This document shows, one piece after another, positions 5,725-57,492 of a stretch of DNA of 64,000 bases (the first letter of the stretch is position 1; the number at the start of each line of letters is the position of its first letter). Location: positions 2,604,001 to 2,668,000 of the forward strand of contig NZ_CP100000.1 of assembly GCF_024138165.1 (NCBI RefSeq), read 5' to 3'. Position numbers and translations under genes: made by a program. This stretch comes from Halorussus vallis. Lineage in GTDB: Archaea > Halobacteriota > Halobacteria > Halobacteriales > Haladaptataceae. Below the pieces are notes generated by a model that worked only from the letters and a program-made list of their open reading frames with translations, was not told the origin of the DNA and searched no databases.

Positions 5725-5979
5725 GAGTAACCGCAGCCACATACCTCCCCAGCCGATTCCCTCGTTCGCTGGCGCTCACTCGGTCATCCCTCGCACGAAC
5801 GCGGCGCTCCGCGCCGCGTTTTCGCGCGCCGTAACCTGGGTCAGCTTCGCGCACTCTCACGTCTGGCGTGGCGCGTGCGGTCGCGGCCTCGTGCCGCGAC
5901 CAATCCGCGCGAGGGATGAGCGAACGCAGTGAGCGAATCGGCTGGGGAGGCGTGTGGCTGTGGCGGTGCGGTTATTCAT
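5725..5979. repeat. interspersed repeat family A, copy 1 (inverted-repeat element)
   Basis: This is the core of a 650-nt gene-free spacer (5566-6219). The ends are inverted: 16 nt at 5744-5759 (CCTCCCCAGCCGATTC) match the reverse complement of 5935-5950 exactly, and 11 nt at 5784-5794 match 5909-5919. Inside is a perfect 10-bp hairpin at 5798-5820 (AACGCGGCGC stem). The same blocks recur at 37541 and 57232 with different hairpin sequences at the same place. No coding pattern is convincing. The left part of the spacer (5566-5724) shows nothing recognisable. Confidence 0.75.
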
Positions 5980-5984
5980 TTGTA

Positions 5985-6092
5985 TCGTGCGAGCAGAACG
6001 CTTCACTCACCAAGCATACCCTTCGACGGAGTGCGAGCAGGACGCCTCACTCACCCAAAATTCTCCTTCGAGGGAGTGCGAGTAGAACGCTT
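5985..6092. repeat. family D short spaced repeats, three units
   Basis: Three copies of a motif close to TGCGAGCAGGACGCTTC start near 5988, 6032 and 6077, so the period is 44-45 bp. About 28 bp of dissimilar sequence separates them. The array directly abuts the right end of family A copy 1. A four-unit array with the same motif, reversed, abuts another A copy at 37379-37540. The repeats are too short and imperfect for CRISPR and no cas genes are present. Confidence 0.65.
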
Positions 6093-6219
6093 CGCGTCGT
6101 TCGTCTCCGGCTGTGGCTTTACGTCGCTCACTTCCAGGTCGTCACTTCCCGTCGTTCGATTCCTCCAATATCGCCGAGTCCCGACGTTTCAAGCCCCCGG
6201 CCCGCGAACCGGCCCACAC

Positions 6220-6858
6220 ATGACGCTGGTCGCGTTCGACTTCGACGGGACGCTCTCGGACTCGGAGATGACGGTCCTGCTCGGCGAGCGGATGGGAGTC
6301 GCCGACGAGATGGCCGACATCACCGAGCGAGCGATGAACGACGAGATTAGCTACGCCAAGAGCCTCCGCGACCGGGCGGCCCTGCTGAAGGGCCTCTCGG
6401 AGGAGGACGCCGAGGCGGCCTTCGACGACGTCTACCTCCGGACCGACGCCGGGACGCTCATCCGGGAACTCAACGAGGCGGGCGTGACCACCGCCGTCCT
6501 CACCGGCGGGTTCGAACGCGGCGTCGAGAAGGCGCTGGCGCGCGAGGGCGTCTCGGTCGACACCATCGTCGCCAACCGTCTGCCCATCGTAGACGGCGAA
6601 CTCACCGGCGAGGTCGAGGGGCCGCTCATCGAGGGCACCAAGGACGACGCGCTCGAACGCCTCGCGGCCGAGCGCGAGATAGACATCCGCGACACCGTCG
6701 CGGTCGGCGACGGCGCCAACGACCTCCCGATGCTCGAGATTGCCGGCCAGGCCATCGGCTTCGTCCCCAAGCCCGCGGTCCGGCCCGCCTGCGACCTGAC
6801 GGTTTCGACGATGGAGGAACTCAAGGACGTGTTCGAGGAGGACGGCCTGTTCGACTGA
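6220..6858 (+). CDS. serB: phosphoserine phosphatase SerB (HAD family)
   Basis: This 212-residue HAD-superfamily phosphatase probably converts phosphoserine to serine, the last step of serine synthesis. The catalytic loop FDFDGTLSDSE (Asp7, Asp9) is at the extreme N-terminus. The conserved lysine is near the GTKDDALE stretch (about 143-150) and the Mg2+ loop GDGANDLPML near 165-175. The reading frame is open upstream through repeat sequence, but the family always begins just before the DxDGT motif, so the ATG at 6220 is chosen. Related small HAD phosphatases cannot be fully excluded. Confidence 0.88.
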   Translation: MTLVAFDFDGTLSDSEMTVLLGERMGVADEMADITERAMNDEISYAKSLRDRAALLKGLSEEDAEAAFDDVYLRTDAGTLIRELNEAGVTTAVLTGGFERGVEKALAREGVSVDTIVANRLPIVDGELTGEVEGPLIEGTKDDALERLAAEREIDIRDTVAVGDGANDLPMLEIAGQAIGFVPKPAVRPACDLTVSTMEELKDVFEEDGLFD

Positions 6859-6888
6859 GGCGGCGCTCGTACGGAACCTATTCAGCGG

Positions 6889-7293
6889 TCAATCGGTCTG
6901 CAGTTCGGCCGTAATCCACTTCGAATCCGGGAACGCTTCTCGAATCAGTTTCACCCTCGATTTCCCGACCGTCTCTGGAGAGGAATCGCTGGACGCTCCG
7001 ACGAACAGTGCGACCGTCTTGTCGGGCACTCCTTTCGGTATCACGAATTTCTCTTCGGTGGCCTGTACGTATTTACCGACGTCGATCTCCCATCGAAGGT
7101 GCGCCACGCTTTCGCCTTCGCCGTTCTTCTCGATGTGAACCGTCGCCACGAACTCCCCGTCGGAAAGATGATACGTTCGCGCCGAGGTTATCGAAAAGTC
7201 CGGCTTTGCCGAGTTCGATCGAAGCGCCTGACAGCCCGTGAGAAGCGTGACGATAGCTGCCGTTCCAGCGGAGACGAACACGCGGCGATTCAT
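6889..7293 (-). CDS. small predicted lipoprotein
   Basis: This 134-residue protein has an N-terminal signal with a lipobox (LLTGC, Cys about 21), predicting export and lipid anchoring. The mature part is beta-rich (FVATVHIEKNGEGESVAHLRW) and resembles a small immunoglobulin-like domain, but I recognise no named family. The Arg pair near the N-terminus (MNRRVFVSAG) suits a Tat signal. It is convergent with serB, 30 nt apart. Function unknown. Confidence 0.65.
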   Translation of the reverse strand: MNRRVFVSAGTAAIVTLLTGCQALRSNSAKPDFSITSARTYHLSDGEFVATVHIEKNGEGESVAHLRWEIDVGKYVQATEEKFVIPKGVPDKTVALFVGASSDSSPETVGKSRVKLIREAFPDSKWITAELQTD

Positions 7294-7478
7294 GAGAATC
7301 GCAACTCCATCTCCGATATGAATTTTCCGATGTGAACGACGGAAAAGTCCCCGAGAAGACAGACACGACCGCCACCGAATTTAGATCAAGTCCGGAATAA
7401 TGGCGTATCGAGCGCTGTCCTACTACTTCTCGCCAACTTTATCTTCTCGGGAGGTCTATAGATGTGCGGTAATCCACA

Positions 7479-7949
7479 ATGGCTCGATACGACCCATTCG
7501 AGGAGATGGACCGCATGTTCGAACAGATGCGAACCCGGATGTGGAACGTCGGCGGGCCGTTCGACGGCCTCGACGTACGCACTCGCGGACGCGGTGACGC
7601 GAACCTCGACCTGACCGAGCGCGAGGGCGAGTACGTCCTCGTCGCCGACCTGCCGGGGTTCGAGAAGGAGGAGATCGACCTCACCTTCGACGACGGCACG
7701 CTGACCATCGCTGCCGAACACGAGGTCCGCGACGCCGAGGAGATGACGGGCGAGACGGGCGAAGTCGCCAACGTCGGCTTCGCCCGCTCGCGCAAGGTCG
7801 CCGAGAGCGTGACCGTCCCCGAGGAGATCGAGGAGGACGAGATCACCGCCTCGTACCGCAACGGCGTCCTCGAAGTCCACCTGCCCCTCGTGGCCCGGGA
7901 TGAGGACGACGAGGCCGACTCCGGCACGAAGATCGGCATCGAGGACTGA
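7479..7949 (+). CDS. Hsp20/alpha-crystallin small heat-shock protein
   Basis: This 156-residue cytoplasmic ATP-independent chaperone holds unfolding proteins. The alpha-crystallin domain covers about residues 35-130, with EYVLVADLPGFEKEEIDL at its start and the conserved YRNGVLEVHLP near 126-137. The N-terminus (MARYDPFEEMDRMFEQM) is typical of archaeal Hsp20. A TTTATC box at 7438-7443 is a plausible TATA element giving a leader of about a dozen bases. A T5 run at 7968-7972 after the stop could serve termination. Confidence 0.92.
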   Translation: MARYDPFEEMDRMFEQMRTRMWNVGGPFDGLDVRTRGRGDANLDLTEREGEYVLVADLPGFEKEEIDLTFDDGTLTIAAEHEVRDAEEMTGETGEVANVGFARSRKVAESVTVPEEIEEDEITASYRNGVLEVHLPLVARDEDDEADSGTKIGIED

Positions 7950-7967
7950 TCTCGACCCAGCGACGAG

Positions 7968-7972
7968 TTTTT
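7968..7972 (+). terminator. possible T-run terminator after the hsp20 gene
   Basis: Five thymidines occur 19-23 nt after the Hsp20 stop codon in otherwise G+C-rich sequence. Archaeal termination often relies on short T-runs without a hairpin. The run is short, so the call is weak. Confidence 0.3.
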
Positions 7973-8038
7973 CTGACGGCGGTAGAACGGACGTGCTCCC
8001 CGAAAATTACTTCGCCGACGCTTTCGAACGAATCGTCG

Positions 8039-8479
8039 ATGCCCTCCACTTTCTCCCGACGGACGTTCCTCCGCGCCGGTAGTGGAGCGGTCGCCGCTAC
8101 CCTCGCGGGCTGTTCCGCCTCCCGCCGGCCGGGGTCGGTCGACCTCTCCGTCGTCAACTTGACGGACCAACTCCGCACCGTCACGGTCGCCGTTCACCGC
8201 CAGCGGGGCAAACGAATCTGGAGGCAACGAGTCGATCTGCCCGCCCGCGAACCGAACGACGGGTATCGCGTCGAGACGACGAACGCGCTACGAAACGTCG
8301 GAGCGGACCAGAAATACAGCGTTCGGGTCTCGGTCGACGGAACGAACGCGACCGCCCGTGAGACGCTCTCCATCACGTGCGCCGACGAGGACGGAAAGAC
8401 GGACGCGGTCGTCGTTCGCGTCCTCGCGAACGGTTCCGGGTCGGTCGTTCCGGAGATCGACGTTCAGTCTTGCGGATAG
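8039..8479 (+). CDS. Tat-exported lipoprotein, hypothetical
   Basis: This 146-residue protein begins with a twin-arginine signal (SRRTFLRAG) followed by a lipobox (LAGC, Cys about 24). It should be exported folded and lipid-anchored at the cell surface. The mature part is beta-rich, with VDLSVVNLTDQLRTVTVAV resembling a small Ig-like domain. I recognise no specific family. The gene follows hsp20 by about 90 nt. Confidence 0.7.
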   Translation: MPSTFSRRTFLRAGSGAVAATLAGCSASRRPGSVDLSVVNLTDQLRTVTVAVHRQRGKRIWRQRVDLPAREPNDGYRVETTNALRNVGADQKYSVRVSVDGTNATARETLSITCADEDGKTDAVVVRVLANGSGSVVPEIDVQSCG

Positions 8480-8735
8480 TCCGTGGCCCCTGCGGAAATC
8501 GAGGAGAACGGACCGTGATTTTCTCGGACGGTTCGGAGGCGACCGTTGGCGTCCGAACCCACGCTTCGATGGCGTACCGCCATCCCGCACAGGTCGACCT
8601 GCACGGCGCCGTCCGTTCGAGCGGGAAGTTCCGCTCTGCGAGCGGCTTGCCATCAGCTATCACGGATCGCCGGTCGTCTCGTCCCTCCCCGTCGCCGTCC
8701 CACGACTAATGTGTCTTGCCGCCGAGAACGGTACC

Positions 8736-9176
8736 ATGGACGCCTCTCGCGCCACGGGTTGGTTGGAGCGGAGCGTCGCGTTCTTCCAGACGCTCATCGC
8801 CGGATTCCTCGTCGTCCTGCTCGCCGTCGGGGTCATCGACCTCGGCCTCATCGTCGGTCGGTTCTTCCTCGCGCGCGACGTCACGAACCCCGACGCCACG
8901 CTCACGCTGATCCGGTCGGCCGTCGACGTGGTGCTCTACCTGTTCGTCGTGGTCGAACTCTACAAGACGATCGTCGCGTACGTCGAAGAACAGAGCGTCG
9001 TCGTCGCCGTGATGCACGCCGGCCTCATCGCGGTCGTCCGACAGATTATCACGTTCAAACCCGACGAGTACGTCCCCTCGAAGGCCATCATCATCGCCGG
9101 CGTGTACGCGCTGTTGCTGGTTGCGTTACTGGTCGGCTTCTACGTGGTTCACGGCCGCATAGAGGGGTCGGAGTAG
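8736..9176 (+). CDS. PsiE-like (phosphate-starvation-inducible) membrane protein
   Basis: This 146-residue protein has four hydrophobic segments at about 15-40, 55-75, 85-110 and 120-140. The last two flank the conserved stretch containing RQIITFKPDEY. The arrangement and the VVVELYKTIVAYVEE segment match the PsiE family; the physiological role is unclear. I chose the ATG at 8736. An in-frame ATG at 8709 would add nine residues. The 256-nt spacer upstream (8480-8735) shows no supported gene. Confidence 0.72.
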   Translation: MDASRATGWLERSVAFFQTLIAGFLVVLLAVGVIDLGLIVGRFFLARDVTNPDATLTLIRSAVDVVLYLFVVVELYKTIVAYVEEQSVVVAVMHAGLIAVVRQIITFKPDEYVPSKAIIIAGVYALLLVALLVGFYVVHGRIEGSE

Positions 9177-9372
9177 GGAGGCGACTCGCGGCGGTCGGAA
9201 ACGGTAAGCGCACGGGAACGTTTCTCGCAGGGTGTTTGGGCAGTGAGGACGAGGGAACGCCGACGTCGACCGTCGCTTCGCCGCCGACCGTCAGCGAACG
9301 CTCCTCGTAGATGGCGCTCCCGGCTCTCGACAGGAGGTCGCTAAAAACTGTAGAACGCCGGTCCTTCGACCG

Positions 9373-10554
9373 TCAGGCTCCGGAGTCGGGCCGAGTGCCG
9401 AGCGTCACCGTCACCCGCTGGCGCTCGCCGTCTCGGAGGATGGTCATCCGGACCGTATCGCCCGGCCGCTTCTGGACGAGGACGCTGGCGAGGTCCTCCT
9501 GAGAGCCGATTCGCTGGCCGGCCACCCGGAGTATCACGTCGCCGCCGACCGGAACCGGCTGTCCGTTCACCTCCACCGTCCGGGTGCTCCCCTGGAGGAC
9601 GCCGTCGGCGGGCGACCCCGGGACCACCTGGCCGACGAGGACGCCGCGGGTGACCCGCAGGTCGTTGGCCTGCGCGACGGTCGGCGTCACGTCGGTCGAC
9701 GTGATGCCGAGGAACGAGTGGTTGTACGTGCCGTCCTCGATGAGCGCCGGGACGACCCGCTGGACCCGCGAGGCCGGGACCGCGAAGCCGATGTTGTCGC
9801 TCCCCTGGGCGCCCGCGGTGTTGACGCCGATGACCTGCCCGCGGCAGTTCATCAGCGGACCCCCGCTGTTGCCGGGGTTGATGGCCGCGGTGGTCTGGAC
9901 GGTGTTGGGTATCGTGAACTGCGGGCCGGTCGCGCCGCCGGCGGGCAGCGAGCGGTTCACCGCGCTGACGATGCCGCCGGTGATGGTTCCCTGGAGGCCG
10001 AGCGGACTCCCCAGCGCGGCGACCGGCTGACCCGGTTGCGGGCCGCTACCGTTCAGCGCGAGCGGGTCGGCGTAGTTCGGGACGTTGTTCACGTCGAGGA
10101 CCGCGAGGTCGCTGTAGGCGTCGGTGCCGACGACCTCGGCGGTCCGCCACTGGCCCTGGTTGAACTGAACCTCGACCGAGGTGGCGTTGGCCACGACGTG
10201 CTGGTTCGTGACGATGCGGCCCTGGTCGTCGTAGACGAACCCGGAGCCGAGTCCGCCGCCCCGCGGCGTCTGGACCTGTATCGTGACGACCGACCCGATG
10301 GCCTGGTCGTACAGCGACCGGTAGTTACAGGTCGGCTCCTGCTGGACCAGCGGCGCGCCGGCGGCCGACCCGGTCGCGGTTTCCGCCGCCGCGGCGGCCG
10401 TTCCTCCGTCGGTCGCCGCCCCTTCGGCGCCCGGAATCAGCTCACCCCCGTCGACGGCCGGAGCGAGCGCGGTCGCGCCGACCGCGCCGATCACTCCGCC
10501 GCTGACGAGCGCGAGCACCAGTACCCCCGTGAGAACTTGCGTGCGTCTTCGCAT
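9373..10554 (-). CDS. HtrA/DegP-type trypsin-like serine protease with PDZ domain
   Basis: This 393-residue exported protease probably degrades or refolds damaged surface proteins. A hydrophobic signal or anchor spans about 7-33, and a low-complexity Ala/Gly/Thr linker follows to about residue 70. The trypsin-like domain carries His119 (TNQHVV), Asp149 (AYSDLAVLDV) and Ser230 (NPGNSGGPL). A single C-terminal PDZ domain spans about 281-385. Two cysteines (about 76 and 237) could pair outside the cell. The single-PDZ layout is that of DegS-like or archaeal HtrA proteins. It is separated from the upstream surface-protein gene by about 175 nt. Confidence 0.9.
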   Translation of the reverse strand: MRRRTQVLTGVLVLALVSGGVIGAVGATALAPAVDGGELIPGAEGAATDGGTAAAAAETATGSAAGAPLVQQEPTCNYRSLYDQAIGSVVTIQVQTPRGGGLGSGFVYDDQGRIVTNQHVVANATSVEVQFNQGQWRTAEVVGTDAYSDLAVLDVNNVPNYADPLALNGSGPQPGQPVAALGSPLGLQGTITGGIVSAVNRSLPAGGATGPQFTIPNTVQTTAAINPGNSGGPLMNCRGQVIGVNTAGAQGSDNIGFAVPASRVQRVVPALIEDGTYNHSFLGITSTDVTPTVAQANDLRVTRGVLVGQVVPGSPADGVLQGSTRTVEVNGQPVPVGGDVILRVAGQRIGSQEDLASVLVQKRPGDTVRMTILRDGERQRVTVTLGTRPDSGA

Positions 10555-10729
10555 CGGAGGGAAACACGGTTTCGAGGTCCTTGAAACCGGTGACCGACGC
10601 GACTCCCCGCTCGACCCCTCGCGTCGGGGGAGTCGGCGAACGCGCGCCGACTGATGACGGCCGGGTGCGCTCGCGTCGGCCGACTACGGAATCGGGCGGC
10701 GTGCTCACGCCGCCCGATTCACCGGACGT

Positions 10730-13480
10730 TCAGTTCGGCGCGCTCGCGGAATCGGCGGCTTCCGTCGCCGTGGTAGTTTCGCTCGGTGATGCCGTCCCGT
10801 TCGTCGCGGTCCCGTTCGGCGACGCCGACGCCGCGGCGTCGGCGTCGGCGCCGAGGTTCGGCCGGAGGTCGTCGAGCGCCTCCACGGTCGGGGCGTTCAC
10901 GACGGTCACGCTCGTCCCGTTCCGGACCACACGGAAGGCGTCGGCGAACGGTCCCGACTCAATGACCCACGTGTTCGGGCCGACCTGCTCCGCGCCGTGG
11001 CCCAGGAGCGTCCGACGGTACGCCCGGTGGAACTCCTCGGCGTCCCGCGGCGTGTCCCACGCCGTCTGCCAGACGTAGCCGTACGCGGTCCCGTTCGGCG
11101 TCTCCTTCCGGTAGGGGACCAGCACGTCGTTGCCCCAGCCGACCGACGGCGGACTGGTGTAGTTGTAGAGGTCGAAGGGAGCGTCGTTGGGCACCAGGTG
11201 GTTCTCCACGCTCACGACCGGGATTCCGTACTCGTACCCCTGGTACCAGAACATCGCGAAGATGCCCACCTCGCCCACCGTCGTCCGGCCGTCCCGGGTC
11301 GGCCCGGTGAGGTTCTCCGGGTCGAACTCCTGCCAGCCGTCGCGGGCGGTGCTCTCGAACGCCAGGGGGACCGGCGTCTCGTTCCGGCGCTCGGGGTGGA
11401 GGAACTGCTCGGTGCTATTCGGGGGGTGCTCGTACGCCTCGTCGACCGCCGCCCAGCCGCCCCGCTCGCGCAGGGTCGCGATCAACTGCGGGCCGTCGGA
11501 GTACGGCGAGAGGACGATGGCCCGGCGCGCGAAGTTGCGGTCCGCCGGAACTTCGCCGCCGGGGGGCGTCTTCGACGGCGTCTGGACGCAGTTCCAGACG
11601 ACGCCGCAGTACTTCTCGTACAGCATGGCGACGTACTCGGCGTCGCCCTCGGTCAGGCCGAGGCTCCCGCGCAGTTCGTCCTCGGACCGGGGTCGGTCGC
11701 CCGGTCGGTCGACGTCGAAGTGCTGGCCCTGGAGTGCGTGGACGAGTTCGTGGACGAGCGTCGTGCCGTCGACGACCGGCGGGTCAGCGTCGGAGACGAG
11801 GGTCAGCCGCCGGGAGTCCCGGTAGTACGACCCCAGAATCCGGGTGCTCTCGTTCTCGAGTATCTGCGTGGCGTTGCGGTCCTCGCCGGCGACGAACAGC
11901 GCCTCCCAGTACTGGTTCTCCCAGGCCGACTGCTCGCCGCCGACGCTCGGCGTGGCGGCCGCCTGCCGCTCGAACCGGTCGCGGTCGACCACGTCGAGCG
12001 TAATCGACTCGGTGAACTCCAATTGCCGGAGGTGCTCGACTCGGGCGATGGACCGGTAGACGTACCGACGGAGTTCGTCGTCGGTTAGGCCGTTGGACTG
12101 GTTCACCGCGATGTCCTCGTCGTGGCGGATGCCGCCCTCCTCGCCGATGCCGTCGTCGGTCGATTCGAACGTCATCAGTCCGTTGCGGTTGTTCGCCACC
12201 CGGACGCCCGTGGAGTTGGTGACGTAGACGCCGGCGAAACTCGTGTTCAGGACGACGTTGTCGACGACGGCTCCGCCGGTCGCGTTGGCGACGTAGACGC
12301 CGGCGAACTGGTCGCTGGCGTTCGAGTCGACGACGGTCGCGCCGGCGGTCCCGTACAGGAAGACGCCGTACTGCTGGTTCCGCGAGGCGTTCGCGCCGAC
12401 CACCCGTCCGTTCGCGACCTCCTGGAAAAGGACGCCGGCGAGTCGGTTCCGCCGGGCGGTGCCGTCCCGAATCGTCGTCCCCGTCCCGTTGGCGGCGAAG
12501 ACGCCGATTCGATTGTCGGAGGCGTTCGTGCCCATGACGCGACTCCCGGTCGTGTTCTCCAGCAGGACGCCGGCGAGTCGGTTTCGAGCGGCGACGCCGT
12601 CCCGAATCGTCGTGCCCGCGGCGTCGATCGCGTAGACGCCCGCAAGCCGGTTGTCGACGGCGGTCGCCCCCGTCACGTCGGTTCCGGTCGCGCCGAACAG
12701 GTAGACGCCGATTCGGTTGCCCGAGGCGTTCGCGCCCGCGAGGTCGGCGTCGGTCGTCCCGTCGAGCAACACGCCCGCGAGGTCGTTGTTCCGCGCGACC
12801 ACCGCCGAGAGGGTCGCGTTCCGGCCGCCGGACCGGTAGACGCCGACGAGGCCGTTGCCCGAGGCGGTGACGTTCGCCAGTCGACTCCGGGCGGCCTCGA
12901 ACAGGCCGACGCCCACCACGGCGTTGTCGACCGCGGCGACGTCGGCGATTCGGACGCCCCACGACCGGGCCGAGACGACGCCGAAGCCGACGTTCGAGGC
13001 ACGGACGTCGACGATGCGACTGCTCCGGAGTCCGTTCGCGACCACGCCCCACCGCCAGTCGGTTACCCGAAGGTCGGTCACCGTGACGTTCGAGCGGCGT
13101 CGGTCCCCGGTCGCGGCGACGCCGACGCTCGTTCGCGGGGCCAGCGGGTTCGCGCGGCCGGCGAAGAACTGCCGGGAGAGTCGGTCGGCGTCGGGCGACG
13201 CCCTCCCGTCGACGACGTGGCCGTTCCCGTCGAGGACGACGTCGCTGGCCCGGATTCGGATGCAGGTGTTCGCGTCTCTGTTCTGCAAGTCGGCCGCGAG
13301 CACGTATCGTCCCGGCTCCGAGATGGTCGTACACGACGTGATTTCGGTGGGCGCGGCTGCGGCCGCTGTCGCGGCCGTCGATTGCCCTCCGTGCTGTGCT
13401 CTCCCCATCGTCGTTCCGGCGACGGTCCCGGCGCTCACCAGTGCGAGGACGAGTAGCCCCGCGAGCAGTCGGTTCCCCAT
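10730..13480 (-). CDS. surface protein: NosD-like beta-helix fused to an Hvo_1808-type HEXXH domain
   Basis: This 916-residue exported protein has two parts. After a signal segment (about 3-25), residues about 45-415 form a right-handed parallel beta-helix of the NosD/pectate-lyase type, with repeats such as NRLAGVLLENTTGSRV about every 23-25 residues. From about 450 onward it resembles the Hvo_1808 family of haloarchaeal surface proteins and carries a zinc-peptidase motif, HELVH (His577, Glu578, His581). The last ~40 residues are Ser/Thr/Ala-rich without a visible PGF-CTERM anchor. I chose the ATG at 13480 because it begins MGNRLLAGLLVLAL; the frame is open 40 codons further upstream. Proteolytic activity is inferred only from the motif. 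Confidence 0.75.
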   Translation of the reverse strand: MGNRLLAGLLVLALVSAGTVAGTTMGRAQHGGQSTAATAAAAAPTEITSCTTISEPGRYVLAADLQNRDANTCIRIRASDVVLDGNGHVVDGRASPDADRLSRQFFAGRANPLAPRTSVGVAATGDRRRSNVTVTDLRVTDWRWGVVANGLRSSRIVDVRASNVGFGVVSARSWGVRIADVAAVDNAVVGVGLFEAARSRLANVTASGNGLVGVYRSGGRNATLSAVVARNNDLAGVLLDGTTDADLAGANASGNRIGVYLFGATGTDVTGATAVDNRLAGVYAIDAAGTTIRDGVAARNRLAGVLLENTTGSRVMGTNASDNRIGVFAANGTGTTIRDGTARRNRLAGVLFQEVANGRVVGANASRNQQYGVFLYGTAGATVVDSNASDQFAGVYVANATGGAVVDNVVLNTSFAGVYVTNSTGVRVANNRNGLMTFESTDDGIGEEGGIRHDEDIAVNQSNGLTDDELRRYVYRSIARVEHLRQLEFTESITLDVVDRDRFERQAAATPSVGGEQSAWENQYWEALFVAGEDRNATQILENESTRILGSYYRDSRRLTLVSDADPPVVDGTTLVHELVHALQGQHFDVDRPGDRPRSEDELRGSLGLTEGDAEYVAMLYEKYCGVVWNCVQTPSKTPPGGEVPADRNFARRAIVLSPYSDGPQLIATLRERGGWAAVDEAYEHPPNSTEQFLHPERRNETPVPLAFESTARDGWQEFDPENLTGPTRDGRTTVGEVGIFAMFWYQGYEYGIPVVSVENHLVPNDAPFDLYNYTSPPSVGWGNDVLVPYRKETPNGTAYGYVWQTAWDTPRDAEEFHRAYRRTLLGHGAEQVGPNTWVIESGPFADAFRVVRNGTSVTVVNAPTVEALDDLRPNLGADADAAASASPNGTATNGTASPSETTTATEAADSASAPN

Positions 13481-13621
13481 TCCCGACTGCCGCCACGACG
13501 GGGGTGACAATGAATCTATGGCGGCGTCGCGGGGGCCGCGGCGACCGCCGCGGCCGCCCGCGAGCCTTCTGCGTCCGCCGAGCATCACGCGTCCGCCCAC
13601 GACCCTCTCACGCCCGGCGAA

Positions 13622-16152: not shown

Positions 16153-16178
16153 GTGCTACAATCATATTCTCGGAGAAG

Positions 16179-16188: not shown

Positions 16189-16257
16189 TCAGTTACGGTA
16201 ATGTTTGCGAACCCCCTCGGGCGGTGGGCTTTTCCCGCTGGTCGGCGAACGCCCGGC

Positions 16258-28022: not shown

Positions 28023-28062
28023 TCCGGGCGCGGCCGCGAGCGTGCTCGCGGCCGCGCCCGGA
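28023..28062. repeat. near-perfect palindrome in a 500-nt spacer
   Basis: Nineteen bases at 28023-28041 pair perfectly with 28044-28062 (CGGGCGCGGCCGCGAG arm) around a 2-nt centre, so a stable cruciform or hairpin is possible. The spacer 27893-28392 holds no supported gene. A smaller imperfect hairpin, with GAAACCG/CGGTTTC arms (28356-28382), lies just before the next start codon and could form in the leader RNA. Confidence 0.6.
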
Positions 28063-37378: not shown

Positions 37379-37540
37379 ACGAAGCATCCTGCTCGTACTC
37401 CGCAATCGAATGGTGTCTTTGCGAGTCGGGCGTCCTGCTCGCACTCCGCAGAGACGTGTTCTTTCCTCAATCGAAGCGTCCTGCTCGTAGTCTATGGTTG
37501 ATGGTGTTTATGCGGTGAAGCGTCCTGCTCGCACGATGCA
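37379..37540. repeat. family D short spaced repeats, four units
   Basis: On the minus strand, TRCGAGCAGGAYGCTTC-like motifs occur four times; the shared 9-mer TCCTGCTCG on the plus strand begins at 37387, 37433, 37479 and 37523. The spacing is 46, 46 and 44 bp with unrelated 28-30 bp between. The array abuts family A copy 2, the same order as D next to A at 5.7-6.1 kb. The remaining 37266-37378 shows nothing clear. Confidence 0.65.
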
Positions 37541-37650
37541 AATGAGTAACCGCAACCACATCCTCCCCAACCGACTCCTTCGTGCCCTGCGGGCACTCAG
37601 TCGTCCCTCGCGCGGTCGCACCCTGCCGGGTGCGACTTCGCGCGCCGGGG
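37541..37650. repeat. family A repeat, copy 2 (half element)
   Basis: It starts with GAGTAACCGCAACCACATCC and continues with CTCCCCAACCGACTCC and TCGTCCCTCGCGCG, shared with copies at 5725 and 57232. Two hairpins occupy the same places as in the other copies but have different sequence: a 6-bp stem at 37582-37596 (GTGCCC) and a 9-bp stem at 37615-37636 (GTCGCACCC). The right-hand inverted half is missing. Confidence 0.65.
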
Positions 37651-37755
37651 AACCGGTGAAAATAGCGCGAGGTAGTGTTTTCGAATTGGCGTGCGCTGGC
37701 AGAGTGCAGTGGCGGTTTGCAGGGCGCGAAGCGCCCGCACCAGTTCTCCGAAGAT

Positions 37756-37796
37756 GCGAACGAGATGACCGCGCGCTGCGCGGTCATCTCGTTCGC
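37756..37796. repeat. 19-bp perfect inverted repeat
   Basis: The arm at 37756-37774 (GCGAACGAGATGACCGCGC) pairs exactly with 37778-37796 around GCT. It lies at the left edge of family C copy 1. The equivalent place in copy 2 (near 39320-39345) holds the unrelated but short GAGCGAACGAAGTGAGCG phrase. Confidence 0.65.
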
Positions 37797-40257: not shown

Positions 40258-40375
40258 GAAAGCCCCCGGCCGCTACGCTCCCGCGGCTCGATGCGCTCCT
40301 CGGTCGCGCCTTCGGCGCACCCTGCGGTGCTTGACTTCGCCGGGGTTCGCGTAGCGGCCGGCCCCTTTCAGTCCC
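40258..40375 (+). repeat. family B repeat, copy 1
   Basis: It begins GAAAGCCCCCGG and ends CCCCTTTCAGTCCC, with a perfect 13-bp outer stem (40266-40278 with 40349-40361, CCGGCCGCTACGC). The centre includes the block GCTCGATGCGCTCCTCGG and a short hairpin GCGCC-TTC-GGCGC. Matching blocks recur at 57106-57231 and, reversed, at 57493-57609, with different stem sequences. The spacer 40131-40510 holds no gene. Confidence 0.7.
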
Positions 40376-47484: not shown

Positions 47485-47523
47485 CGCCAGCGATAACCGA
47501 CCGGCGACGAGAACGGAGGACGA

Positions 47524-50447: not shown

Positions 50448-50454
50448 GCGCCCG

Positions 50455-50676: not shown

Positions 50677-50843
50677 CGGTAGTCCTCCAGGTCGACGACG
50701 CTCGCCGACGCGGCGTTGATCCACTCGTGGGTTTCGCCGGGGGTGTAGACGACGAGTTCCGGCGTCCCGTCGCTGCCGGTTCGGGCGTAGGTTTCGATGC
50801 TGTTCTCGGTTCGGTCGTCGGTGGGGGTGGCGCGTGTTTTCAT
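50673..50843 (-). CDS. small hypothetical protein, 56 residues
   Basis: This 56-residue protein has the pattern IETYARTGSDGTPELVVYTP...WINAASASVVDLEDYR, which resembles a set of small conserved haloarchaeal proteins I have seen annotated as a DUF of this size; that recollection is not checked. A GGGAGG ribosome-binding site 8 nt before the ATG is unusually clear for this window. It overlaps the next gene by 4 nt. Confidence 0.5.
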   Translation of the reverse strand: MKTRATPTDDRTENSIETYARTGSDGTPELVVYTPGETHEWINAASASVVDLEDYR

Positions 50844-51017
50844 GTCGGGTGCCTCCCGTGGGATACCGATATCGGGTAGGCGTCGGACGGGGTTAAGGGC
50901 GAGCCATGACCGCGGTGAAAGTGAAACTGAGAGGGCCGGTCGGAAACACGCGCAGGTACTTCGACCTCGCCGACGCTCGAATCGCCGGTCGATTCCCAAA
51001 GAAGGAGTCGGGCGGTT

Positions 51018-51587
51018 TCAGTAACCGCCACCGCCGCCGCCACCGTCGGTCGTCGTGCCGTTCGCCGCTGTCGTCGTCCCGCCGGCCGTGGTCGTCTCGA
51101 ACCCGGTGCCGAACTGGATGTCGCCGCGCATTCGCTTCGGGTGGTACTCGCAGTAGTACTGGGCCATCTCCTCGCTCGCCGTGAACGTCAGCGACGCGGT
51201 GGCTCCCATCTGCTCGTTCGACTCGCTCGCCACGATTTCGCCCCCGTTCGCGTCCTCGATGATGAGTTCGTGTTCGTGGCCGTCGAGGTTCATCCAGACG
51301 ATTTCGTACCGCTGGCCCGACTGCAGTTGGAGCGTCGGGTTCTCTGCTCCGTGAATCGCCGACGGTGCGAGGCCGAACCAGTGTTCGACCTCGCCGCCGA
51401 GCAGTATCGTCGTCGCCTGGCCGCCGGCCGTCGTGGTTTCCTGGCCGGTCGTCGTCCCCTGGCCGGCCGCGAGCCCGCCGAGGCTCGTGGCCGCCCCGAC
51501 CGCGCCGGTCGCCAGCAGGAAACTGCGCCGCGATGCGACGTCGCTGTTCGCGTTGTCGTTACTGTCGGAACCGCTCGATCGTGTCAT
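51018..51587 (-). CDS. halocyanin-like exported cupredoxin
   Basis: This 189-residue protein has a Tat signal (RRSFLLATGAVG) and a single cupredoxin domain (about 58-160). Copper ligands are visible: His in DGHEHELII and the YYCEYHPKRMRG cluster supplying Cys, His and Met. These type-1 copper proteins carry electrons at the membrane surface. No lipobox is obvious (SLGGLAAGQ). The tail is Thr/Gly-rich. Two related genes lie close by; the next one has two such domains. Confidence 0.85.
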   Translation of the reverse strand: MTRSSGSDSNDNANSDVASRRSFLLATGAVGAATSLGGLAAGQGTTTGQETTTAGGQATTILLGGEVEHWFGLAPSAIHGAENPTLQLQSGQRYEIVWMNLDGHEHELIIEDANGGEIVASESNEQMGATASLTFTASEEMAQYYCEYHPKRMRGDIQFGTGFETTTAGGTTTAANGTTTDGGGGGGGY

Positions 51588-51687
51588 TCTTCCCCACCGA
51601 GCGCGAGGTACGACCCCGGTCGTTCAAAATGTTACCGGCCGAAACGGTCTGGCAACCCGGACGAGAGAGCGGTTCGAAGCGTCTCCG

Positions 51688-52566
51688 CTACCGCCGGACG
51701 AGTCCCTCGCCGGTCACGACCTCGACTCCGCCCCGCATCGACTGCGGATGGAACGCACAGAAGTACTCGGCCATCGCCGGTGTCGCCTCGAACGACGTCT
51801 CGTGGGTTTCGCCCACGCCGTCTCGGTCACTGGTGTCGGCGAGGTCCTCGCCGCTCGCGTCCGCGACGTGGAAGTCGTGCTCGACGCCGTCGAGGTTCAC
51901 CCAGACGAGGTCGTACTCGCGTCCCGCTCGGAGCCGAAGCGTCGGATTCGGTCGCCCCCGAATTCCGGCCGGCGTGAGGCCGAGCCAGTAGCCCACCTGC
52001 GCGCCGAGCACGACGGTCGTCTCGTCCAGCACCGGCGGCCGCTCGCTCGCGCGGGTAGTTTCGTCGTCTGCCGTCGTCTCCGTTCCCGTCGCCGTCTCCT
52101 CTCCCGTTTCTCCGCCGCCGCTCGTCGCGCCCCCCGATTCGACCGCCACCGTCCCGCGCATCGTCTGCGGGTGCACCTCGCAGTAGTACTCGGCCATCGC
52201 CGGCGTCGCCTCGAACTCGACGGTCTGTGTCGCGCCCCGCTCGGAGACGATGTCCGTCTCCACGAGCGGGTTCCCGTCCGAGTCTTCGACCACGAAACTG
52301 TGCGGAACCCCGTCGGCGTTGGTCCACGTGACTCGGTAGGTCACGCCGGGGTCGAGCGACAGCGCCGGATTCGTCATCCCTGCGATCGATTGCGGCGTCC
52401 GACCGACCCACCCCGAGACCGCTCCGTCCAGCGCGATTTCGGTCGCCTGTACCCGCCTGAATTTCTCCACTCCCCGTACTCCCCCGATTCCTGCGAGCGC
52501 CCCGGTCGTCGTGGCGGCCGCGAGGACGGCCCGCCGCGACAGTCGCGCGTGCTGATTTTCCCCCAT
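51688..52566 (-). CDS. exported protein with two tandem cupredoxin domains
   Basis: This 292-residue protein has a basic hydrophobic signal (SRRAVLAAATTTGALAG) and two cupredoxin domains: one about 42-140 ending in YYCEVHPQTMRG, a second about 185-288 ending in YFCAFHPQSMRG. A Thr/Glu/Gly-rich linker joins them. Each has its own upstream His (VPHSFVVED and VEHDFHVAD), so both should bind type-1 copper. The copies have diverged. It is probably an electron-transfer protein at the cell surface. The single-domain copy at 51018 is about 100 nt downstream. Confidence 0.82.
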   Translation of the reverse strand: MGENQHARLSRRAVLAAATTTGALAGIGGVRGVEKFRRVQATEIALDGAVSGWVGRTPQSIAGMTNPALSLDPGVTYRVTWTNADGVPHSFVVEDSDGNPLVETDIVSERGATQTVEFEATPAMAEYYCEVHPQTMRGTVAVESGGATSGGGETGEETATGTETTADDETTRASERPPVLDETTVVLGAQVGYWLGLTPAGIRGRPNPTLRLRAGREYDLVWVNLDGVEHDFHVADASGEDLADTSDRDGVGETHETSFEATPAMAEYFCAFHPQSMRGGVEVVTGEGLVRR

Positions 52567-52724
52567 CGAGACGCGTTACTACCGCTGAGCCGATAAATCG
52601 AGTGGGCGGTATCGGCGCGCCGTTCGACGTACCGGTGAAAAAAGACCGCGACGCCGGTCGATTCGAGGACCGTCGAAGCGTTCGACGGTCCTCGAAGCAT
52701 TCCGATGTCCTAGAAGTCGCTCGC

Positions 52725-54440
52725 CTACGCTCCGGCGTCGAGCGTAATCGTCTCCGTCGCCGTCTTGCCGTCGCTACTGGTGACGCGTAGTGTGACTTCG
52801 ACGCTGCCGCACGCCGGAACGGTCACTTCGGCGCGTTTGCCCGTGGTCTCGAAGGTGCCGTCACCGTCGAGGTCCCACTCGTACGTCACTATCTCGTCGT
52901 CCTCGTCGCTCGCGTCCGCCCGCAGTTTGACGGTCGAGTTGCCGCCGAGTTCTCCGTCTTCGGCGTCCTTCGGCGCGGTCCGAATCGTCGCCGTCGGTTC
53001 GGAGTCCCGCGTCCGCGGTTCGTCGTCTGCGACCTGATGCTCGTCGCTCGGTTTCGTCTCGCTCCCGTTGAGCGCGTAGACTTCTCCACCCAACTCTAAT
53101 GACCGGTCGTCGTTCTCGGCGACGTAGACGTGACCGTTCGCGGGTGCCGTGACGAACGGGTCCTCGTACCGTAGTCCACCCTCGGTCGCGTAGCTCCACC
53201 GCTCGCTTCCGTCTGCTCGGTCGAGCGAGTAGACGACCGTGTGCGCGGTCGGGTAGTGGACGTACTTCGTCGGGTCTTCACCCTCCTGGAAGCCCGGGCC
53301 GTAGTCGCCCTTCGTGGGGAAGTCGCCGCCGACGTACACCGAGTTCGCGCCGACCGATGGCGCGCTCGTGAGTCGCACGGCGGTCCGGAACTGCCAGTCT
53401 TCGGTTCCCGTCTTCGCGTCGAGCGCGTGAACCGCACCGACACGCTCGTCGTCGCCGTCTTCGTAGTGGTCGTCGGTCGTGACGTACACCGTCTCGTCCG
53501 TCACCGCGGGGGCGCTAATCCAGTCGGACTCGCTGTCCTCGAACTTCGCCCGCACGGGTCGTCGCCATTCGACGCCCCCGTCGTCCGCCGACAGCCGATA
53601 GACGACGTTCGGCTGTGCGGTGACGTAGATTGCGCCGTCCGAGACCGCAGGACCGGACATCTCCGACGCGGCCGGGACCGACACGTTCCACTGTTGGCTC
53701 CCGTCGCTGGCGTCGTACGCTGTCACGGTTCCCTCGGCACCGGTCACGTAGACGCTGCCGTCGGCGACTGCAAAGCCACTCAACGAAAAGCTCGGGATTT
53801 CCGTGGTCTCCGTACTCCATCGCCGTTCGCCGGTTTCGGCGTCGAGCGCGTAGAGAGTCCTGTTCGAAATTGCGTACACCGTGCCGTCGGCCACGGTCGC
53901 ACCGGTCGCCCAGTCGGTCGCTTCCTCGAACCGCCACTTCGTCTCGCCCGTCTCGGCGTCGAACGCGAACAGTCCGGCCTTGCCGACATCGTAGCTCGGC
54001 GGACTGGTAATCGTCTCCGTGGACGCGAACACCGTGTCGCCGGAGACGGCGGGCGTGCCGACCACGACCGAGAGGTCGGTTCTGTTCCACTCTTCCACAC
54101 CGGTCGTCGCGTTGTGCGCGACGACCGCGCCCTTGGCGACCGCGGTGTCGGATTGGGATTCGTAACCGACGTAGGCGGTCCCGTCGGCGACGGCGACGCC
54201 AGACGGTTCGCCCTCTCCTTCCGGTTTCCACGCGGTGTCTGCGTACGTTGCGCTCGGTCCACTCGCGTTCGTCACGCCGGTTCGTCCGCCGTCCGCGCGC
54301 TCTCCGGGCCACGCGCCGTCCGCTTCGGCCGCGTTGGCCGCGGTCGGCGACCCGGCGAGGACCGCGCCGCCGAGCGACGCAGACGAGACGACGAGGATCG
54401 TCGTTACTAGTAGTACCGATAACTTCGTTTCTCGTTTCAT
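52725..54440 (-). CDS. exported PQQ-type beta-propeller protein with PKD domain
   Basis: This 571-residue protein has a signal segment (about 6-28). Repeated strands follow, each like FAFDAETGETKWRFEE or YALDAETGERRWS; about seven to eight such blades form a PQQ-like (alcohol-dehydrogenase type) propeller at about 60-470. The C-terminal ~95 residues form a PKD-like domain (YEWDLDGDGTFETTG). Catalytic residues for a true quinoprotein are not evident, so it may be an adhesin or assembly protein of BamB type. It sits next to cupredoxins, which could be functionally linked, but that is inference. I prefer the ATG at 54440 over a GTG four codons upstream. Confidence 0.75.
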   Translation of the reverse strand: MKRETKLSVLLVTTILVVSSASLGGAVLAGSPTAANAAEADGAWPGERADGGRTGVTNASGPSATYADTAWKPEGEGEPSGVAVADGTAYVGYESQSDTAVAKGAVVAHNATTGVEEWNRTDLSVVVGTPAVSGDTVFASTETITSPPSYDVGKAGLFAFDAETGETKWRFEEATDWATGATVADGTVYAISNRTLYALDAETGERRWSTETTEIPSFSLSGFAVADGSVYVTGAEGTVTAYDASDGSQQWNVSVPAASEMSGPAVSDGAIYVTAQPNVVYRLSADDGGVEWRRPVRAKFEDSESDWISAPAVTDETVYVTTDDHYEDGDDERVGAVHALDAKTGTEDWQFRTAVRLTSAPSVGANSVYVGGDFPTKGDYGPGFQEGEDPTKYVHYPTAHTVVYSLDRADGSERWSYATEGGLRYEDPFVTAPANGHVYVAENDDRSLELGGEVYALNGSETKPSDEHQVADDEPRTRDSEPTATIRTAPKDAEDGELGGNSTVKLRADASDEDDEIVTYEWDLDGDGTFETTGKRAEVTVPACGSVEVTLRVTSSDGKTATETITLDAGA

Positions 54441-54653
54441 TGCTGCTGTCACTATGTCTCCTTTCGTCGCTCAGTCGAATCGACCGAATGCGACACCGAG
54501 AACGATTACAATCAGACACCTAACTATTCAGTAGGTAAACAATTCTGAAAGGCTGTTATTCGCTGCACAACTCAGACAGGTGGGTCGCTAACCAGCTTCT
54601 ACGCGCCGTCTAGCAGTTCTCTGGGGGAAATTGCGGCTCTCGCCGAGGCCGAA

Positions 54654-57002
54654 TCAATCTCGCCAGAACCGCTCCAGCCCCAGCGAGAGCATGTCCGGAC
54701 TCACCGGCTGAAACTCCTCTCGCTCGGTCGCGGGGAAGTACTCCCGGACGCCGTCCCACGACTCGCGGGCGTACCGGGCGTCGACGAGCACGCGGACGCC
54801 CACCTCGTCGACGCCCCGGATGACCCGGCCGAGCGCCTGGCGGGCCTTGCGGACCGCCGGGACGGTCAGCGCGTACTCGAAACCGTCGCCGAACTCGCGG
54901 TCGTAGGCGGTCCGCACCGCCTTCGTGCGGGGGCTGGCGGTGTTGATGATGGGGACGCCGCAGACCACCGCGGCGCTGAGTTTGTCGCCCTCGTAGTCGA
55001 CGCCCTCCGTGAGGGTGCCCCGAAGGCTCGTCACGAGGACCTTCGACTCACCGCCGAAGAACTCGGCCTTGAGGTCTTCGGTGGCCTCGTCGGCGCTGGA
55101 CTCGTCGAGCAGGACGGGTTTCTCGACCTTCGGGTTCTCCCGGAGGCTCTCGGCGGCCCACTCGGCCTCGGCGTAGTTGGGCATCCCGACCAGGACGTTA
55201 CCGGGGGTGCTGGTCGCCACGTCGCGGAGCGCGTCGGCGTACACCTGCCGAGTGGGGGTTTCCTCGCCCGGTGCGCCCCGGTTGTCGTAGGTGAACTTCG
55301 GAGCGTCGACCGCGAAGCTCTCGCGGTTGGCCTCGGGGAAGTTCAGGCCGTAGGTCCGCTCGACGACCGGGCGGCGCTCCTCGCCCTCCAGGTGGTTCAG
55401 CCCCGTCACCTCCTCGAACACGTCGACCGGTTCGAGGGTCGCGCTCATCAGCACGCCGCCGCCGAACTCCGAGAGTCGCTCGCCGATGGCGTCGCTGGGC
55501 ACGCAGTTCTGCATGGCGAGGCGGGCGTTGTACGCCCGCCGCCACGACTGGGGAGGTTCGGCGTCGTTCCACGTGCGTTCGAGTTCTATCTCCCGGAAGT
55601 AGCGCTCGTGGTCGTTGCGGTACCACTCGCCGAGCACGCGGCCCGCGGCGGGCGCGGCCCGCTCTTTCTCCTCGTCTTCGGCCTCGTTCAGGATGCGAGC
55701 GACCACCGAGCCGACCGCTTCGGCGCGCACCCAGACGCCGTCGTGGTAGCCCCGGTTGGCGGCCCACTCCGATATCTCGTCCTCCTGCGGTTCGGTCGGC
55801 GGGCGCAGGGGGATTTCGGCGTCCGGCAGGTCGGGGAGGTTCGACTTCCAGCCCCGGTGTTCGCGTTCGAGGTACTCGGTCACCCGGCGGTCGAGTTCCT
55901 CGCGGAGTTCCCGGAGGAACTCGCGGGTTTCTTCGAGTTCCGAGAGGCTCACGTCGCTGTCGCCGAGTTCGCCCCGGACGAGGTCGGCGTCGGCGGTGGT
56001 GTGGCTCTCCTGCCCGTCGAACTTGATGGGCTGGATGACCCGCGTGAGTTCGGATTCGGCGTCCCGAAGCGTCTTGTCGGCCACCGCGTCGCTGACGAGG
56101 TCCCGGACGCGGGGTTCGAGCATGTGGGCCTCGTCGCAGACCACGAACGTCGAATCGTCGAGCAGCGCGCCGGTGAACGTCGCGGTGGTGACGGGGTCGA
56201 ACGCGTGGTAGTAGTTGCCCACGACGACCTCGGCGTGGGCCAGCACCGCGCCCATCATCGAGTGGGGGCAGGTACCGTACTCGACCGACCGCGCGACCAG
56301 CGTCTCGGGGTCGATGAGCCCCATCGACTCGAAGTCGAAGGGGACCGCCTCGATGGGTTCGCCGTCCTCGGGCATGTCCTCGAGGAACTGGGCGTAGAAC
56401 GGACAGTACTCCAGGTTGTCGTACTCGGGCATCTGCGGCGGGTAGGGCGTCGGCTCGTCGGCGGTTTCGAGGTACGAGGCGGCCGCCCGGCCCTGCGCGC
56501 CCGAGTCGGCGAGCCCGGTCTGCTGGCTCCGGGCGCGCGAGACGAGGTTCTGGGCCGTGGTCGACCCGCCCTCGCCGGTGATGGCCCGGGTGTCCTCCCG
56601 GAGCGTCTCGCACCGCCCGTAGACGTTCTCGTCGTCGATACCGCCGGCGTTCTCACGGTTGTACGGACAGACGTCGGCCTTCCCGACGAGCGTCAGCCCC
56701 GTGACGGGGTTCCAGTCGTCGGGGAGGTTCGCGTTGATGGTCCGGAGGTCCGCCTCGAACTGCCGAAGTTGTTGCTTGACGCTCGTGAGGACGACCACGC
56801 GTTCGTAGTCGCTGTCGGGGTCGCGGACCAGGTGGATGCCGGCGGTCAGCGCCAGCATCGTCTTGCCGGTCCCGCAGGCCCCCTCCACGACCGCGAAGCC
56901 GCCCCGCTCGGCGGTATCGATGGCCGTCTCGATGCCGTCGACCTGCTCGTCGTAGGCTGCGTCGTGGCCGAAAATCTCGCGCCACGAATCTGCGGAAGTC
57001 AC
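54654..57002 (-). CDS. XPD/Rad3/DinG-type ATP-dependent DNA helicase
   Basis: This 782-residue superfamily 2 helicase has Walker A GACGTGKTML and a DEAH box (VVCDEAHML). The iron-sulfur domain is marked by four cysteines: Cys112 (VCPYN), Cys131 (GRCETL), Cys200 (EYCPFY) and Cys245 (GTCPHS). The C-terminal motif VI (QALGRVIRGVDEVG) is present. XPD-like 4Fe-4S helicases unwind 5' to 3' and act in repair or transcription-coupled roles. The GTG start at 57002 is chosen because the preceding 55 codons resemble spacer rather than protein. UvrBC and LigA are elsewhere in the window. Confidence 0.9.
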   Translation of the reverse strand: MTSADSWREIFGHDAAYDEQVDGIETAIDTAERGGFAVVEGACGTGKTMLALTAGIHLVRDPDSDYERVVVLTSVKQQLRQFEADLRTINANLPDDWNPVTGLTLVGKADVCPYNRENAGGIDDENVYGRCETLREDTRAITGEGGSTTAQNLVSRARSQQTGLADSGAQGRAAASYLETADEPTPYPPQMPEYDNLEYCPFYAQFLEDMPEDGEPIEAVPFDFESMGLIDPETLVARSVEYGTCPHSMMGAVLAHAEVVVGNYYHAFDPVTTATFTGALLDDSTFVVCDEAHMLEPRVRDLVSDAVADKTLRDAESELTRVIQPIKFDGQESHTTADADLVRGELGDSDVSLSELEETREFLRELREELDRRVTEYLEREHRGWKSNLPDLPDAEIPLRPPTEPQEDEISEWAANRGYHDGVWVRAEAVGSVVARILNEAEDEEKERAAPAAGRVLGEWYRNDHERYFREIELERTWNDAEPPQSWRRAYNARLAMQNCVPSDAIGERLSEFGGGVLMSATLEPVDVFEEVTGLNHLEGEERRPVVERTYGLNFPEANRESFAVDAPKFTYDNRGAPGEETPTRQVYADALRDVATSTPGNVLVGMPNYAEAEWAAESLRENPKVEKPVLLDESSADEATEDLKAEFFGGESKVLVTSLRGTLTEGVDYEGDKLSAAVVCGVPIINTASPRTKAVRTAYDREFGDGFEYALTVPAVRKARQALGRVIRGVDEVGVRVLVDARYARESWDGVREYFPATEREEFQPVSPDMLSLGLERFWRD

Positions 57003-57105
57003 TGCACCGAGGTAGCGCTTCTTCGGGTTTGAACGTTTGGATGGCGCGGTGGAAGTGAAGGTGAGCGTCTCTAAACGCAACGACCAGCGGAACTGTGACC
57101 GCCCA

Positions 57106-57231
57106 GAAAGCCCCCGGGCGCTCGCGGTCGCTGGCCGGGATATGCGGTTCGCGCCTGCGGCGCTCACCGAATAGTGGCCCGTCCAGACGACCTAGCCCTT
57201 CGGGCGCGAGTACCCGGCCCCTTTCAGTCCC
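57106..57231 (+). repeat. family B repeat, copy 2
   Basis: It has ends GAAAGCCCCCGGG and CCGGCCCCTTTCAGTCCC, as in copy 1. The outer stem CGGGCGCTCGCG can pair with CGCGAGTACCCG with two mismatches. It is immediately followed by family A copy 3. The gap 57003-57105 before it shows nothing distinct. Confidence 0.7.
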
Positions 57232-57492
57232 ACCCGAACCGCACCGCGCCACACCCTCCCCAGCCGACTCCCTCACGCCTGCGGCGTTCAGTCGTCCCTC
57301 GCGCGGCTTGGTCGCGGCACGGGGCCGCGACCCCGCGCGCCACGCCGGCTGTGGAGATGCGCGAGATAGTCTCCCGGTCACGGCGCGCGCTGGCGCGACC
57401 TCGTGTCGCGCCGTCCTCGTGCGAGGGATGAGCGAACGGAGTGAGCGAATCGGCTGGGGAGGGCGTGGCGTGCGGTCGCGGTGTTGCCTGGC
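57232..57492. repeat. family A repeat, copy 3 (inverted halves)
   Basis: The left half carries CCTCCCCAGCCGACTCCCTC and TCGTCCCTCGCGCG; the right half carries GCGAGGGATGAGCGAACGGA and GAATCGGCTGGGGAGG in inverse. Variable stems: 5 bp at 57275-57287 (ACGCC), 9 bp at 57310-57332 (GGTCGCGGC), 8 bp at 57392-57412 (GGCGCGAC). Compared with copies 1 and 2 the stem sequences differ but still pair. Confidence 0.72.

Follow-up and report, generated by a model that had tools for sequence, protein, structure and literature searches.

The 64,000-nucleotide stretch of Halorussus vallis DNA analyzed here (contig NZ_CP100000.1, positions 2,604,001 to 2,668,000; called the window below, with coordinates counted from its first letter) has a G+C content of 67.5%, comes from a genome of 5.05 Mb in five contigs, and carries copies of two families of palindromic repeats, A and B. 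Members of family A, about 200-230 bp long, are nested palindromes in which two inverted half-elements of about 80-105 nt surround an apex of about 40 nt with the by-eye consensus GTGACC...TATCGCGCATCTYCAC...GGCGT. Read in order, the left side of a full element consists of an arm (CCACACGCCTCCCCAGCCGA), hairpin a, the block TCCCTCGCRCG, a variable hairpin and GCGCGCC; beyond the apex the right side continues with GGCGCGC, a variable hairpin, CGYGCGAGGGATGA, hairpin a′ and TCGGCTGGGGAGGCGTGTGG. Arm-to-arm length was 181-325 bp in 23 full copies, the longest of which hold insertions. Searching the H. vallis genome with the first window copy returned 77 pieces, which we merged by eye into about 40 places. 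Copies were oriented by their apex, an earlier orientation by arm motifs having been abandoned.

The window holds three copies of A. Copy 1 is a full element (5733-5961, + strand) in the divergent hisA/serB spacer. A scan for perfect stems places its left-half variable hairpin at 5798-5820 (+; 10 bp, loop TCC) and its right-half variable hairpin at 5879-5901 (+; 9 bp, loop CTCGT), on either side of a GCGCGCC-apex-GGCGCGT core in + orientation (5824-5876). At 5911-5947 (+) its right half continues with the GAGGGATGAG block, a hairpin with tandem G.A pairs (GAGCGAAC-GCA-GTGAGCGA) and TCGGCTGGGG. Copy 2 is a left half-element only (37551-37652, +), with a variable hairpin at 37615-37636 (+; 9 bp, loop TGCC, from the same scan). 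Copy 3 is again full (57244-57473), has its apex in the - orientation, and lies between two inverted copies of B; its variable hairpins are at 57310-57332 (+; 9 bp, loop ACGGG, also from the scan) and 57392-57412 (+; 8 bp, loop CTCGT). Family B, for which the sequence-only reading of this DNA gave no coordinates, we took to be GAAAGCCYYCG...CCCTTTCAGTC; 77 of 92 copies are 110-129 bp long. Besides the two copies beside A copy 3 (57106-57229, probable structured strand -; 57494-57609, probable structured strand +), the window contains one of a TCCCGCG subfamily (40258-40373, probable structure-forming strand -). In the B-A-B block at 57.1-57.6 kb, each of the four units (the two halves of A and the two copies of B) would have its structured strand running outward from the apex.

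The sequence-only reading had singled out one variable hairpin in each A copy, and all three are perfect, with stems of 10, 9 and 9 bp and loops of 3, 4 and 5 nt. The comparison it built on them holds only in part, since the hairpins at 5.8 and 57 kb are of left and right type in elements with opposite apices and are not homologous. A single hairpin is also no evidence here, because the window contains 32 perfect stems of at least 9 bp with loops of 3-9 nt. What exceeds chance is the recurring position of the hairpin between conserved blocks, copy after copy, together with complementarity within each copy. As single DNA strands, both full copies tested fold far better than shuffled sequence (z -10.65 for copy 1, -6.80 for copy 3).

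To compare copies we used shuffled sequences and chimeras, in which the 5′ half of one copy is joined to the 3′ half of another. A best stem score of at least 7 was found in 34 of 40 H. vallis half-elements, as against 15 of 800 mononucleotide shuffles (2%) and 182 of 1560 cross-copy chimeras (12%). For half-elements from congeners and other genera the corresponding counts were 37 of 57, 28 of 1140 and 194 of 3192. In a larger set a stem was present in 183 of 199 half-elements, using an ungapped search that favors Watson-Crick pairs. The share of Watson-Crick pairs within copies was 0.982 (H. vallis), 0.985 (genus) and 0.832 (others), compared with 0.505, 0.509 and 0.349 across copies; since each stem was picked within its own copy, these shares are tilted toward within-copy pairing, and the chimera test is the fair one. 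An alignment of 39 half-elements, A2, had 98.4% of cells paired versus 80.3% when shuffled, and a covariation score of 0.460 versus 0.122, which none of 500 shuffles reached; slid pairings scored 0.038-0.073. Double changes were present in 12 of 39 cells at the second pair from the outside and in 6, 20 and 6 at the three loop-proximal pairs, with the maximum (20 of 39) at the pair second from the loop. We also devised a tree-based null for this analysis and applied it to the 68 of 183 stems with fixed geometry (58 distinct sequences, none from other genera). Its top six column pairs were five stem pairs plus loop positions 1 and 4 (C..G or T..A), and three column pairs reached E <0.05, two of them annotated.

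Family B behaves similarly. An alignment of 35 copies had 95.3% of cells paired versus 83.2% when shuffled, 131 double-changed cells versus 42.7 (0 of 500 shuffles as high), and a covariation score of 0.312 versus 0.107, so the earlier proposal that B stems differ between copies yet still pair is borne out, given the assumed identity of B. Together, the covariation in A and B stems is real: it exceeds shuffles, chimeras and slid pairings, and for some pairs the tree-based null. This confirms, on larger alignments and with a simplified test, the compensatory change that had been noted by eye; stem halves were not seen to vary without covariation, nor did pairing fall to the random level.

The same data limit the proposal that the stems vary completely. 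Of the eight pairs aligned in A2, four have the 6-20 double-changed cells given above and the other four are nearly constant, with one pair type filling 36-39 of the 39 cells. H. vallis and its congeners have 33 distinct stems of 8 bp with a loop of 5 nt, eight of which contain a non-Watson-Crick pair; 28 of the 33 lie one base pair from their nearest neighbor, counting a change on either side alone. The stems therefore change in small steps, with intermediates. Orthologous sites, with flank pieces 73-93% identical, carry stems that differ yet pair. Upstream of the gene at 57684, the stems of four congeners (L200, L204, L206, L208) all differ, either in sequence or in length, and the half-element is absent from the stretch examined in three others (L207, L209, L211); when arms are crossed between the orthologues at this site, 6-8 of the outer 8 positions still pair. 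Exchange of stems drawn from a limited common pool was rejected as the explanation, as 142 distinct stem-loop types occur among 178, 129 of them singletons. Common types do recur, one of them in 14 loci.

Small steps bear on a mostly mutational explanation, in which polymerase template switching or hairpin repair keeps the arms matching without selection on function. While this would suit the 138 of 183 stems that have no mismatch at all, as well as the differences in stem length and loop between orthologues, the 28 of 33 stems one base pair from their nearest do not look like whole-arm replacement, and it does not account for the covarying loop positions. It also predicts no strand asymmetry, and asymmetry is what we find. 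Hairpin a′ in 43 H. vallis tails scored 9.33 when G.A pairs were allowed, compared with 3.81 when T.C was allowed, 3.78 for Watson-Crick pairs only, and 4.96 for shuffles of the same tails with G.A allowed. With G.A allowed, 73 tails from the genus scored 8.03 versus 3.68 in shuffles and 63 others 8.13 versus 3.04. This second A hairpin pairs well only through tandem G.A, which identifies a preferred strand. Its loop is a triloop in 129 of 177 cases, GNA in 111 and TNC in 1. Palindrome-correcting mutation could contribute, but alone would not yield such asymmetry, and we consider a mostly mutational origin improbable.

For B, mismatches among 2001 pairs in 92 copies were A.C in 33 and G.T in 5 (p 4e-6), and T.C in 37 and G.A in 8, so the strand preferred in B is the one opposite GAAAGCC; at stem edges the helix search, being ungapped, may put some pairs in the wrong place. 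The mismatch spectrum strengthens the earlier suggestion of a selected structure in DNA or RNA, which our results support; that selection acts on the structure is what we infer from them.

Strand-specific mismatches would also be expected of structured non-coding RNA, the main rival explanation, in which transcription of the structured strand of the A halves and of B gives functional RNAs or structured parts of transcripts. In B, conserved unpaired positions adjoin covarying stems, and RNAalifold predicts 32 pairs, 14 with double changes, which also speaks for RNA. Against this, neither A nor B has an Rfam match: at gathering score the one Rfam hit in the window was a tRNA, at 57050-57680 no hit had an E value of 1 or less, and at B in four B-bearing loci there was none, the sole match elsewhere (E 0.73) being far below the cut-off. 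G.T pairs are scarce on the structured strand, at 14 of 1786 in A stems (0.8%) and about 33 of 2001 in B (about 1.6%), compared with 34 of 423 (8%) in ARAGORN tRNAs from the loci examined, a comparison in which the methods differ, several ARAGORN tRNAs look false and 3 of 22 predictions were dropped. The low G.T share leans toward DNA over RNA. So does the loop, as GNA triloops are mainly a DNA preference and RNA prefers GNRA tetraloops. The GNA triloop is described as an extra-stable DNA minihairpin (PMC6479982, citing Yoshizawa 1997).

Genomic context provides a further comparison. Using a purpose-made codon-usage gene caller and copies with a predicted gene on both sides, all 23 full A copies and all 64 B copies were outside predicted genes; the B set comprises 64 of 74 copies from H. 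vallis and its congeners, with 18 from other genera left out. Spacers with A were co-directional in 13 cases, divergent in 7 and convergent in 3, and those with B in 36, 19 and 9, respectively. The B structured strand matched the gene strand in 21 cases and opposed it in 15 (p 0.4). B thus shows no clear preference for either orientation relative to genes, and 19 of its 64 spacers are divergent; both points count against RNA. The lack of a clear orientation also makes an untranslated-region element a poor fit as a general role, and we regard structured RNA overall as rather unlikely. A further alternative, that the copies are transcription terminators or sites bound by proteins as cruciforms or as duplex DNA, would agree with the intergenic placement of all full A copies and the strong folding of the two tested. 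If both strands were extruded, there would be no reason for G.A pairs and GNA loops on one of them, and as a general role we reject termination, since many spacers are divergent (7 of 23 for A, 19 of 64 for B). The low convergent share is no argument against terminators because it is ordinary here: among 28 window spacers of at least 120 nt, 14 are co-directional, 13 divergent and 1 convergent. We consider this group of explanations slightly less probable again than the mutational one.

Orthologous sites differ in whether they carry a copy. Between hisA and serB, a full A occurs in H. vallis (spacer 654 nt) and in congener G017 (690 nt, where the apex points the other way with respect to the genes), and one A half-element in G011 (L179, 391 nt); in 5 of 14 congeners with SerB recognized beside HisA the spacer is just 117-209 nt. 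Three more such spacers (L184, L185, L192) appear to contain two small genes side by side, which by eye resemble an antitoxin/PIN-toxin pair, and four of 620-1070 nt were left out of the content comparison. Per-genome counts vary widely and are lower bounds, as no more than 150 candidates were scored (31 or 37 in the class searches). A model of B (R1) matched 77 times in H. vallis, 0 in G009, 1 in G013 and at least 150 in G015; a model of the A half (R2) matched 117, 0, 3 and 113 times, respectively. Since G009 is without a match, neither family has a role essential to the genus. In a sample of the class Halobacteria, R1 matched in 56 of 116 genomes (30 of 45 genera) and R2 in 45 of 116 (20 of 45 genera). 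A 20-nt A pattern occurred in at least 120 stretches of named genomes, and all 80 records among the matches listed are named as Halobacteria. No viral contig matched the pattern of either family, and A had no phage match; plasmid records with matches numbered 9 and 5, all haloarchaeal, and a virus or plasmid origin was rejected. We found no published description of A or B among top-ranked results in the openly licensed literature.

Nesting is also frequent, with A between inverted D or B arms and A split by a further element, C. Most full A copies are flanked by inverted D arms (CGCACGATRCAAATGAGTARCCGC), forming nested palindromes (5700-5732 and 5962-6100 in the window); one such arm (ATTCATTTGTATCGTGCGAG...) is at 5967-6006, with no strand assigned and an inverted partner at 37515-37554, and repeats of about 45 nt occupy 5990-6090, to the right of A copy 1. 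Element C is about 50 nt long, has two hairpins, often with GCGAAGC, and is inserted in A half-elements at one site, after GCGAGG or a near form and mostly before GGATGA, in constant orientation among the first 40 matches. The insertion occurs in Halorussus and in Halococcus morrhuae (L103, position 3892 of the locus); the other loci are L017 (2130), L024 (2008), L025 (2113), L028 (1927), L030 (1939), L197 (2270), L220 (239), L222 (273), L280 (489), L306 (1379) and L326 (1314). C-like elements lie within the stem or loop of A variable hairpins in L024 (2086), L035, L037 (2050) and L038.

We propose, with a probability of roughly one half, that A and B are palindromic mobile elements, non-coding and non-autonomous, which Halobacteria carry in high copy number and which are recognized as folded single-stranded DNA, each A half-element and each B being a unit with a preferred strand. 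The proposal brings together the conserved blocks, the covarying stems, the one-strand hairpin with tandem G.A pairs and a GNA triloop, the intergenic placement, the presence and absence at orthologous sites, and the nesting. We hypothesize that the preferred strand, once single-stranded, folds; that a protein would recognize this fold together with the short conserved blocks GAGGGATGAG and GGYTGGGGAGG; and that the element would then be copied or moved. Since reading would depend on the fold and not on the stem letters, stem sequence would drift by small compensated changes. A more specific version is tentative, and we think it probably too specific: class-wide, strand-specific elements of folded single-stranded DNA with tandem G.A pairs, GNA triloops and two covarying loop positions, below which a T may be extrahelical, moved by a shape-reading enzyme other than a Y1 transposase, with C satellites that target a fixed site in A.

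Several observations weigh against the mobile-element proposal. Sixteen of 199 half-elements have no stem of score 6. In A2, both-sides-changed pairs and further pair types beat shuffles less clearly (3 and 37 of 500 as high), and B fails on the same two of five measures (36 and 160 of 500). Of the eight stem pairs in the tree-based test, two were at E <0.05, two at 0.05, one at 0.15, and three hardly vary. The variable A stem in Halorussus provides weak strand evidence (G.T 6 versus A.C 3), and tandem G.A inside it is nearly confined to other genera (22 of 57 versus 1 of 126 in H. vallis and congeners). Filled versus empty sites cannot separate insertion from loss. Near-identical full-length copies were absent among the listed matches, the best non-self identity being 79-82% for A and 91% for B, with short pieces higher, so no recent burst is seen. 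Lastly, no mover was identified among Y1 matches. In 8 of 18 Halorussus genomes there was no match to the Y1 transposase family (PF01797), the only transposase family searched, and six of these eight hold 19-47 A and 38-47 B matches.

The H. vallis genome has one full and one weak Y1 match, and no A outer motif lies beside either. Ends shared with an autonomous transposon were sought at twenty loci fetched for Y1 transposases, the only insertion sequence family covered. Neither an A outer motif nor a complete B turned up there; 6 of the loci have single B-like end motifs at near chance level (8 versus 3.45 in shuffles), and two degenerate C-pattern matches are unconfirmed. Given the Halorussus genomes with no Y1 match, a Y1/RAYT partner was rejected for the genus today; a past role is possible.

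Among known repeats, the SMR-A group of small mobile repeats in Haloquadratum walsbyi (HqIRS42/43/55, about 110 bp) is close. As the relevant parts of the source describe them, these are non-coding and haloarchaeal, with prominent inverted ends and tens of copies, and sit inside the palindromes of other elements (PMC3119063). In line with this, A is non-coding with inverted terminal repeats, and B, mostly 110-129 bp, is of similar length. The same parts state that copies of one type are commonly >95% identical (PMC3119063), whereas A and B are far more diverse, with variable stems (best full-length non-self matches 79% and 82% for A, 91% for B), and A is about twice as long; A is set beside the HqIRS elements by description and not by sequence. 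SMR-A insertion is into palindromes of PATE or IS605 elements; A lies between inverted D or B arms and C within A, hosts that may or may not be of the PATE or IS605 kind. PATEs, IS605-derived and terminal-only, are likewise palindromes without a transposase, and a 52-bp PATE recalls element C, but they are described as without inverted terminal repeats (PMC3119063), which A has.

The REP/REPIN/BIME repeats, in the sections consulted, share two inverted hairpin half-units around a spacer, an extragenic location and hairpins predicted in single-stranded DNA or mRNA (PMC3116915, PMC3733652), and A likewise is an extragenic inverted palindromic pair around a spacer in many copies. Compensatory changes are reported there as common in the REPIN hairpin (PMC3116915), so a mobile repeat whose hairpins covary has a precedent. 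They differ in that no RAYT partner was found for A or B and in half-unit length (about 80-105 nt in A versus 20-40 bp). Among Y1 subclasses, the relevant part of another source reports 1.1 (IS200-type) alone from Archaea (PMC6006769). By these comparisons, A and B would be a variant of transposase-free palindromic elements that resembles haloarchaeal SMRs and bacterial REPINs in how it works but is neither SMR-A nor REPIN, as each of those differs in one of the features compared.

Elsewhere in the window, further long perfect hairpins of 18, 19 and 23 bp, assigned to no family, are at 28023-28062, 37756-37796 and 60370-60419, and a tRNA-Lys(TTT) with a predicted 39-nt intron is at 63597-63710 (-).

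How the small mobile repeats are mobilized was called enigmatic in 2011, in the part of the report that discusses them (PMC3119063). With more than 100 half-elements in one genome and B in 56 of 116 genomes of the class, the strand-specific covariation amounts to a natural experiment on what a putative fold-reading enzyme needs. Congeners range from 0 to at least 150 B matches, so that the mover could be sought among genes whose presence or absence follows the copy number, and G009 and G013, nearly or wholly without A and B, are useful for finding it.

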